A DNA stretch of 37,266 bases from NCBI GenBank assembly GCA_022749845.1, contig JAKIWX010000008.1, positions 1-37,266 on the forward strand. Reading direction: 5' to 3'. Below are positions 35,035-36,598 of the stretch, piece by piece (position 1 is the first letter of the stretch; every line of letters starts with the position of its first letter). Source of the stretch: Thermoplasmata archaeon. GTDB taxonomy: Archaea; Thermoplasmatota; Thermoplasmata; Lutacidiplasmatales; UBA184. The notes beneath the pieces were generated by a model that was not told the origin of the DNA, searched no databases, and worked only from the letters and a program-made list of their open reading frames with translations. The position numbers and the translations under genes were made by a program.

Positions 35035-35093
35035 GGCGGCCCCACTCGCGTGCCGCTCTTGAGCACCGCACCCTCGGGCGGACGGTCAAACCT

Positions 35094-35300
35094 GTAACTG
35101 TTCACGGGATCGGTACCGCGAGCCGGACCGCCCAGACCGGACGTCCGAAGGGTGCGCCTACCTCGATCCCGTGTTCGCGCTTCCTCGAGCCGGCGCGCCG
35201 ACGCTGGTAGACCCTTCGGCCCGCCAACCCCGGTGGAGGCCCGCTCTCCACGCGCGTGACTTCCGCCGTGCTCCGGCGTAGCTCCTCCGAAAGGAGATGC
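35094..35300 (-). ncRNA. putative omega-RNA overlapping the tnpB 3' end
   Basis: Interleaved perfect pairings 35103-35112/35164-35173 (10 bp) and 35145-35153/35211-35219 (9 bp) form a pseudoknot at the 3' end of tnpB; 5' boundary arbitrary. Confidence 0.5.
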
Positions 35301-36403
35301 ATCCCTCGGGCAAGGACATTCCTCGCCGCATTCACGTCTCGGTCGCCCTCGAATCCGCAAGGGCACCGGTACGCTCGATCGTGAAGTCGGATGGGAGGGT
35401 CGGCGCTCTTCCCGCACTGGGAGCACACCTGCGTCGTCCCTTGGGCCGGGACCCTGAAGACCCGCCCTGACCGTAGCACCTCCTTGTACGTCTTCATGTC
35501 CCGGAGCATTCCCCATCCGGCGTCCGCGAGACCCTTCGCGTGCCGGTTTCCCTCGATCATCGCGGCGGCACTCAAGTCCTCGAACGCCACCAGGTCGAAC
35601 CGCTCCGCGAGGTCGTGGGAGACCTGGTGGGCGAACCATTGTCGCTGACGACGGACCTTGGCGTGTGCCCGGGCTACCCGGACCCGCTGACGAAGATACC
35701 GGTTGGACCCGCGGTGTTTCCGCGAGAGCCGCCGTTGCTCCTTCCGAAGTCGGTCCTCTCCCCTCCAAAGGAACTCCCGGGGCTCGATTACCTCGCCCGT
35801 CGAGAGGGTCGCGAGATGGGTGAGGCCGAGGTCGACGCCGGCGGGGGCGATTGGTGGTTCGCGGGGAGGTGGGGCCGGGTCGGGGACCTCCAGCGAGAGA
35901 GTGGTGAACCACGCGCCGGCCTCGTAGCGCACCGTCACCGTACGGACCTCCGCGAACGGAGGAAGAGGTCGGTGCAGCCGGAGGGGAATCTCCCCGACCT
36001 TCGGGACCTTCAGTCGCCATGTCCCGTTTCGGCTCGGGACGAGCGGGTGCCGCGGAGGGGTGTACGTGAACGAGTCGACCTCGCGTCGGAATCGGGGATA
36101 GCCGGGGCGCTCGCCCCTTCGGACACGGCGGAAGAACGCTCGAAAGGCGAGGTCAAGACGCTGAAGGCAGTCTTGGGCGACCGCGACCGAGAGTCGGCCC
36201 AAGCCCTCCGAATCGTAGGCTCGCCACCGGGTGAGATCTCCCTGTTGGTCCAAGTAGCGAACGGCGCGGTGCTCGTTCCTCCACGCGTCGCAACGCTCGG
36301 CGAGAGCGTGGTTCCAGAGGTAGTGGAGCTCGGAGCGGTGGGCGTGCAGGATGGGAATCTGGTCGGCGAGCGGGTAAAGGCGATATCGAAAGGAGAGCCG
36401 CAT
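35102..36403 (-). CDS. tnpB: TnpB RNA-guided endonuclease / OrfB transposase
   Basis: RuvC 'GVDLGLTHLA', 'VAFEDLSAAAM', zinc finger 'CSQCG...CPCG', 'DRDVNAARN'; catalytic D/E/D all present. Confidence 0.95.
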   Translation of the reverse strand: MRLSFRYRLYPLADQIPILHAHRSELHYLWNHALAERCDAWRNEHRAVRYLDQQGDLTRWRAYDSEGLGRLSVAVAQDCLQRLDLAFRAFFRRVRRGERPGYPRFRREVDSFTYTPPRHPLVPSRNGTWRLKVPKVGEIPLRLHRPLPPFAEVRTVTVRYEAGAWFTTLSLEVPDPAPPPREPPIAPAGVDLGLTHLATLSTGEVIEPREFLWRGEDRLRKEQRRLSRKHRGSNRYLRQRVRVARAHAKVRRQRQWFAHQVSHDLAERFDLVAFEDLSAAAMIEGNRHAKGLADAGWGMLRDMKTYKEVLRSGRVFRVPAQGTTQVCSQCGKSADPPIRLHDRAYRCPCGFEGDRDVNAARNVLARGMHLLSEELRRSTAEVTRVESGPPPGLAGRRVYQRRRAGSRKREHGIEVGAPFGRPVWAVRLAVPIP

Positions 36404-36598
36404 GGGGACCGGCGAGGAGAGGTCGAATGAGGCCTACTTGGCCTCTCTGTGAGAGGTGAACGATGACCTCGAGAGGGAGCCAAGACACACCGATGGACGG
36501 GGGAGTCGCCTGCGAACCGGGTCGTTCGGGGCTTCTCGCACCGCTCAACTGGGTGAACAGTAACCAAACCTTTTCAGCCCGCCACCGGTCGCCCGAGC

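Follow-up and report, generated by a model that had tools for sequence, protein, structure and literature searches.

What kind of mobile element carries the tnpB gene of this Thermoplasmata contig, and does the 3' end of that gene also specify the guide RNA of the nuclease that it encodes? The question concerns one end of a 37,266-nt stretch of DNA (the window, as the whole stretch analysed is called here), from a genome (G000) whose closest named relative is Thermoplasmata archaeon AcS5-107. The answer that we favor, with a probability of roughly 85%, is that the region encodes a TnpB omega-RNA within a non-autonomous element bounded by IS66-type ends, with homing as its likely role and an IS66 transposase acting in trans as its likely means of movement. 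This answer is built on features read from the DNA, namely the element ends, the inverted repeats, the target duplication, the covarying stems and pseudoknot of the RNA, and a motif beside the duplication.

TnpB and the putative omega-RNA

The protein and RNA features are as follows.

35102-36403, minus strand: tnpB, 433 amino acids, intact frame (Pfam and structure matches)
35094-35285, minus strand: omega-RNA scaffold, 192 nt as modelled, 5' end approximate (covariance model R1 of the first 112 nt)
35264-35278, minus strand: hairpin P1, 35274-35278 with 35264-35268, loop 35269-35273 (covariation)
35176-35254, minus strand: closing stem, 35250-35254 with 35176-35180 (position equivalent to stem 2 of the ISDra2 RNA)
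35103-35173, minus strand: terminal stem P4, the same as helix 1, 35164-35173 with 35103-35112, with an internal hairpin (arm-exchange test)
35145-35219, minus strand: helix 2, 35145-35153 with 35211-35219, perfect in the window, unsupported as structure
35270-35272, minus strand: pseudoknot strand 1, AGC of the P1 loop (unbiased scan)
35096-35098, minus strand: pseudoknot strand 2, GUU, element positions -5 to -3 (3-bp core paired in related RNAs)

The translation matches TnpB domains (Pfam OrfB_IS605, 1.2e-22; Cas12f1-like_TNB, 1.1e-16) and the solved structures of ISDra2 TnpB (E 9e-43), and it contains the RuvC catalytic motifs GVDLG, FEDL, and GDRDVNAARN; the stop codon falls inside the first arm of helix 1 (35103-35112). 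Covariation of the RNA and the intact reading frame point to selection on the TnpB-RNA unit, and both the nuclease and its putative guide RNA look intact and under selection. Among relatives, two tnpB copies (L036 and L037, in G047:C291 and C212) carry one in-frame stop each, with RNA stems and ends intact.

Relatives from the same family have right ends of two kinds, type A (..GTGAnCnnYTAC), which is that of the window, and type B (..GGATGTCA). The scaffold model, covering the first 112 nt, is found in 21 of the family's 103 genomes and, at the level of the class, in 70 of 400. In 12 type-A sequences, 100% of cells are paired both in P1, where four of the five pairs have two-sided changes, and in the closing stem, whose last pair is variously G-C, C-G, U-G, or G-U, and, taken as a whole, the structure has a higher covariation score than any of 500 shuffles or any slid control. 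The arms of P4 pair better with their cognate than with non-cognate partners (permutation p = 5e-5, 10 subfamilies), and nearly all type-A tails, with L125 as the exception, form a hairpin ending some 7-11 nt before the element end, though their sequences differ. For a further hairpin, P3 (columns 67-69/86-88), support is weak, with 86% of cells paired and no two-sided change. No Rfam omega-RNA or sotRNA family matches the region, the sole match being SOX2OT_exon3 at E 0.14, a chance hit. The arrangement is that of the OMEGA systems, a structured RNA overlapping the 3' end of tnpB and terminating at the element end, and homologues and stem covariation thus bear out the overlapping omega-RNA that the earlier note had postulated: judged from these comparisons, the region belongs to a genuine omega-RNA of TnpB, of which it forms the 3' part.

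As to the fold of this RNA, the same note had proposed a pseudoknot formed by helices 1 and 2. Both inverted repeats are indeed perfect and lie where they were claimed to lie, 10 nt for helix 1 (CACGGGATCG at 35103-35112, CGATCCCGTG at 35164-35173) and 9 nt for helix 2 (CCGAAGGGT at 35145-35153, ACCCTTCGG at 35211-35219), and the two do interleave. A perfect 10-bp inverted repeat occurs in 4.7%, and a 9-bp one in 14.7%, of dinucleotide shuffles of the 192-nt region; as neither helix is remarkable alone, homologues were needed to decide. The covariation check, also suggested earlier, came out for helix 1 (the P4 result above) and against helix 2 (p = 0.48). That both helices together make up the functional fold we consider extremely improbable: perfect as they are in the window, and stable as helix 2 may be as an isolated duplex (-15.3 kcal/mol), helix 2 does not covary, is broken in the two nearest homologues (8/9 and 7/9 pairs), would gain its 15.3 kcal/mol by breaking 15.7 kcal/mol of nested pairing, and has its downstream strand in a variable region that is missing or unrelated in other subfamilies.

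What stands of that proposal is the existence of a pseudoknot; its strands are others, as covariation places it at 35270-35272 with 35096-35098. In an unbiased scan of every segment of the scaffold against the last 12 nt of the scaffold, the top rank went to the P1 loop with positions -6 to -3, and, with one sequence per subfamily, 0 of 1000 permutations reached the observed maximum (max-statistic, p = 0.001). A pairing of the P1-P0 linker to the 3' end had been proposed by eye, and the scan favored the P1 loop. Of 50 related RNAs of types A and B, 48 have the 3-bp core paired, the first pair being G-C or A-U, the second G-U, G-C, A-U, or U-A, and the third C-G, G-C, or G-U; the first loop base is an invariant G, position -2 is A in 48 of the 50, and a fourth pair would be A-A in the window RNA. 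In the omega-RNA of ISDra2, positions -5 to -3 pair with the loop of stem 1, and the A at -2 contacts a G (PMC10097598). As far as covariation can tell, the window RNA has the standard TnpB pseudoknot, not the one first proposed. At the split between types A and B the first core pair changes from G-C to A-U, suggesting that the RNA followed the change of the element end.

Element ends and the insertion site

The ends of the element were placed from homologous copies, the match of the terminal inverted repeats (TIRs), a scan with an IS66 TIR matrix, and empty sites in congeners.

35094-36564, minus strand: the complete element, non-autonomous and 1471 bp long, running from the left TIR through leader, tnpB, and omega-RNA to the right TIR
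36543-36564, minus strand: left TIR GTTACTGTTCACCCAGTTGAGC, with an IS66-type tip (18 of 22 positions shared with an IS66 TIR from this archaeal family, as against at most 16 in the null)
35094-35105, minus strand: right TIR core GTGAACAGTTAC, doubling as the 3' end of the RNA scaffold (conservation ends here)
36565-36571, minus strand: target-site duplication AGGTTTG, left copy (present once in the empty sites of G016 and G015)
35087-35093, minus strand: right copy of the duplication, AGGTTTG, predicted nt 1-7 of the guide (empty site)
36572-36576, minus strand: predicted TAM TGAAA, with [A/T]A immediately 5' of the duplication (flank comparison; present in the G016 empty site)
35074-35093, minus strand: predicted guide AGGTTTGACCGTCCGCCCGA, assumed length 20 (follows the element end; ISDra2 pseudoknot register)

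The window element is single-copy in its own genome. Its alignment with two copies in genome G054 (80 and 78% identical) runs to minus-strand ..GTGAACAGTTAC and ends exactly at 35094, and the empty site agrees, so that the start suggested earlier for the guide, minus-strand AGGTTTGACCGTCCGCCCGA from 35093, holds. At the other end, 11 of the first 12 nt of the left TIR equal the reverse complement of the right end. A first three-way alignment had pointed to a left end farther in, near 36466; this was dropped in favor of 36564 on the evidence of the G020 copies, the inverted repeats, and the empty site. The flanks of the element, with one AGGTTTG, align to G016 with an ungapped junction (87% over 800 nt), and G015 matches likewise (73%), both genomes being of the same genus. 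For the element of G010, the congeners G007 and G009 hold GATAGGGGTTTG once. The window and G010 elements are true insertions, with duplications of 7 and 8 bp, respectively. No empty site was found for the element of G051, for which matches spanned one flank only.

The left end is separated from tnpB by approximately 160 nt (36404-36564). In this interval, near 36460, lies a GTTCACC similar to the repeat tip, which the G054 copies have conserved; it is perhaps a second transposase-binding or regulatory site.

The only recognizable gene between the ends is tnpB. The element encodes neither a PF03050 transposase nor a serine recombinase, nor is there a Y1 transposase inside it, as is also the case in IS1341-type elements. 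IS200/IS605 elements are without inverted repeats and without target duplication, and this element has both; IS607 elements are marked by a dinucleotide crossover without duplication, and the duplication here is 7-8 bp. With its IS66-type inverted repeats and target-site duplication, the element is therefore of neither type.

IS66 ends start with GTAA and are flanked by an 8-bp duplication. When these features were tested on the family's own IS66 elements, repeats starting with GTA or GTT and an 8-bp duplication were found. PF03050 is present in 39 of the 103 genomes of the family, and 45 IS66-type elements of approximately 1.1-2.2 kb, with diverse repeat subgroups, were collected (L178-L207, L223-L242), a perfect 8-bp duplication being seen in 12 of these autonomous elements and no intact duplication in 33. 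Ends of TnpB elements, as exemplified by the type-A inverted repeats of G047:C291 (GTATCTACTCACCTTTCTGGCC and GTAGCTGCTCACCTTTCTGGCT), match IS66 ends of the same archaeal family at up to 20/22 positions (null maximum 16/22); the right end of the window element, at 16/22 (null p = 0.01), is a weaker match than those of its sisters. A matrix made from IS66 ends only, run over the whole window on both strands, puts 36564 in first place and 35094 in fourth; for five relatives, its two best matches are the exact ends of the TnpB element. An IS66-like tip pair 109 bp apart (23956/24064) was judged to be due to chance.

Perfect 8/8 duplications flank three sister elements (CTCTTTGT, GAAGAGTT, and GGGGTTTG), two more sisters have 7/8 each, and the window element and G054:C11 have 7/7, while a matching duplication is absent at the copies G054:C44, G049, and G020. 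Closely related type-A copies in genome G020 (L165-L173) contribute at least seven left and six right ends; the complete one, C8, has a mismatched duplication, which suggests recombination between copies or assembly joins. An IS66 transposase was not found in G000 or in several other type-A genomes, which are incomplete drafts, and the draft state of the genomes may explain both the absent transposases and the mismatched duplications. Across genomes, presence of the IS66 gene and presence of type-A elements are uncorrelated (4/10 versus 35/93).

One derivative, at L174 465-789 (G002:C70), has a deletion leaving 325 bp, with both inverted repeats and a perfect 8-bp duplication (GAAGAGTT), a structure to be expected if mobilization in trans requires nothing but the ends. 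It keeps the tnpB start and most of the 3' half of the omega-RNA, without an intact tnpB, and may be a MITE-like unit that supplies guide RNA without a TnpB of its own.

Predicted target motif and proposed mechanism

The dinucleotide [A/T]A is found just 5' of the 8-bp flank at 18 of 18 distinct type-A left ends, as compared to 10 of 90 flanks (5 left and 5 right) of the control, the 45 IS66 elements of the same archaea without TnpB (p = 9e-14). The motif bases lie in host DNA, in variable surroundings, and are present in empty sites, and thus they are not inherited with the element. In the simplest reading, [A/T]A would be the target motif of TnpB, and the guide after it would have the duplication as its first bases. 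The guide of ISDra2 starts at +1 (PMC10097598).

Two other explanations of these data have to be weighed. The motif could instead reflect a target preference of the mobilizing IS66-type transposase, with TnpB as a possibly inactive cargo, and it is true that the control elements may differ from the exact IS66 partner of each TnpB element. Yet the control drew on 45 diverse elements whose inverted repeats are closely related, and the motif was rare in their flanks; it is constant, moreover, in TnpB subfamilies that differ in the IS66 subgroup matched by their repeats, and the RNA covariation and intact reading frame speak for selection on the TnpB-RNA unit, so that we regard this explanation as unlikely. 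A considerably poorer prospect still is that of an ordinary IS200/IS605 (IS1341-type) tnpB element with a standard omega-RNA, at which inverted and direct repeats are found by coincidence. The gene does belong to the OrfB_IS605 family, and these archaea also contain sister elements of type B that resemble IS605, their left end bearing TGAC and their right end GGATGTCA. Against this stand the single copy of the direct repeat in empty sites, the match of the inverted repeats to IS66, the perfect 8-bp duplications of several elements, and the position of the motif 8 bp from the element end, across the duplication, whereas IS200/IS605 elements have subterminal palindromes and a scaffold that ends at the transposon boundary, adjoining the target motif (PMC9956272; PMC10711439).

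Under the favored reading, of a TnpB omega-RNA in an IS66-ended element, we infer a cycle that involves RNA expression, cleavage, homing, and mobilization by IS66 in trans. An IS66-type DDE transposase, acting in trans, would insert the element, duplicating 7-8 bp of the target, and a transcript running through tnpB and beyond the right inverted repeat would give rise to the omega-RNA. Its scaffold would consist of P1, the closing stem, P4, and the pseudoknot between the P1 loop and the end of the inverted repeat, and its guide would start with the duplication. Guided by this RNA, TnpB would cleave a site still without the element, [A/T]A followed by the duplication and flank, and repair from the occupied copy would restore the element. 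A more speculative idea, which we hold to be doubtful, is that TnpB cuts at [A/T]A-adjacent sites help to select or license the sites at which the IS66-type element inserts or is retained. If true, this would be a coupling of an RNA-guided nuclease and a DDE transposase in Archaea, independent of both the CRISPR-associated transposons and Fanzor.

Known systems and the origin of the clade

The closest parallel in the RNA is presented by ISDra2, with a nuclease of the same protein family, the same RNA plan (a first hairpin, a closing stem, a variable inner arm, and a terminal stem), and a pseudoknot between positions -5 to -3 and the loop of the first hairpin, with a non-canonical G and A at equivalent flanks (PMC10097598). 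ISDra2 is an IS200/IS605 element, whose TAM directly adjoins the left end (PMC10097598), whereas the window clade has inverted repeats, a 7-8 bp duplication, and the motif beyond the duplication. The type-B, IS605-like elements of Thermoplasmata possess a homologous TnpB and scaffold, with the pseudoknot in the same position, and differ in their ends, where hairpins and GGATGTCA are found, the left end carrying TGAC; neither inverted repeat nor duplication was seen in the type-B elements examined. At type-B loci such as L108, L109, and L111, the left-end hairpin (of the CCCCCCTACTTGTAGGGGGG type) resembles the right-end hairpin of the omega-RNA. The IS66 DDE elements of the family, on the other hand, share with the TnpB elements repeats that start with GTA or GTT and are up to 20/22 identical, as well as the 8-bp duplication, and differ in encoding the PF03050 transposase.

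A further parallel comes from eukaryotic DDE transposons carrying Fanzor1 and Fanzor2*, which likewise combine a TnpB relative with TIRs and target-site duplications, the TIR forming part of the guide RNA scaffold (PMC10711439). In Fanzor and IS607 elements, bases imposed by the transposase are absorbed into the scaffold (PMC10711439); for Fanzor this is the duplication, and Fanzor1 RNAs have lost the pseudoknot (PMC10711439), whereas the window clade retains the pseudoknot, and its guide appears to begin with the duplication.

In a tree, the type-A TnpBs group together (support 99/95) beside the type-B TnpBs of the same class; the B label of row L046, inside the type-A group, is a default, its right end being off the contig. 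This grouping fits one capture followed by divergence; the repeats of different type-A TnpB elements match different IS66 subgroups. A conventional prokaryotic transposon appears to have captured an RNA-guided nuclease.

A study of TnpB and Fanzor evolution from 2023 found TnpBs only with IS200/IS605 and IS607 transposons and closed on the question of why TnpBs should be so restricted while Fanzors ride many transposon families (PMC10711439). In the open-access literature searched, no earlier report was found of a TnpB with IS66, a TIR, or a target-site duplication. The archaeal type-A clade appears to be an exception to the IS200/IS605 and IS607 rule.

In conclusion, the type-A clade looks like both a prokaryotic counterexample and an evolutionary experiment. 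A monophyletic group of TnpBs appears to have switched to IS66 ends, keeping its pseudoknot through a compensatory change in the loop, and the target duplication appears to have become the beginning of the guide and not a part of the scaffold. Adaptation of an RNA-guided nuclease to a new transposase is now testable, through comparison of close type-A and type-B relatives from the same archaea.
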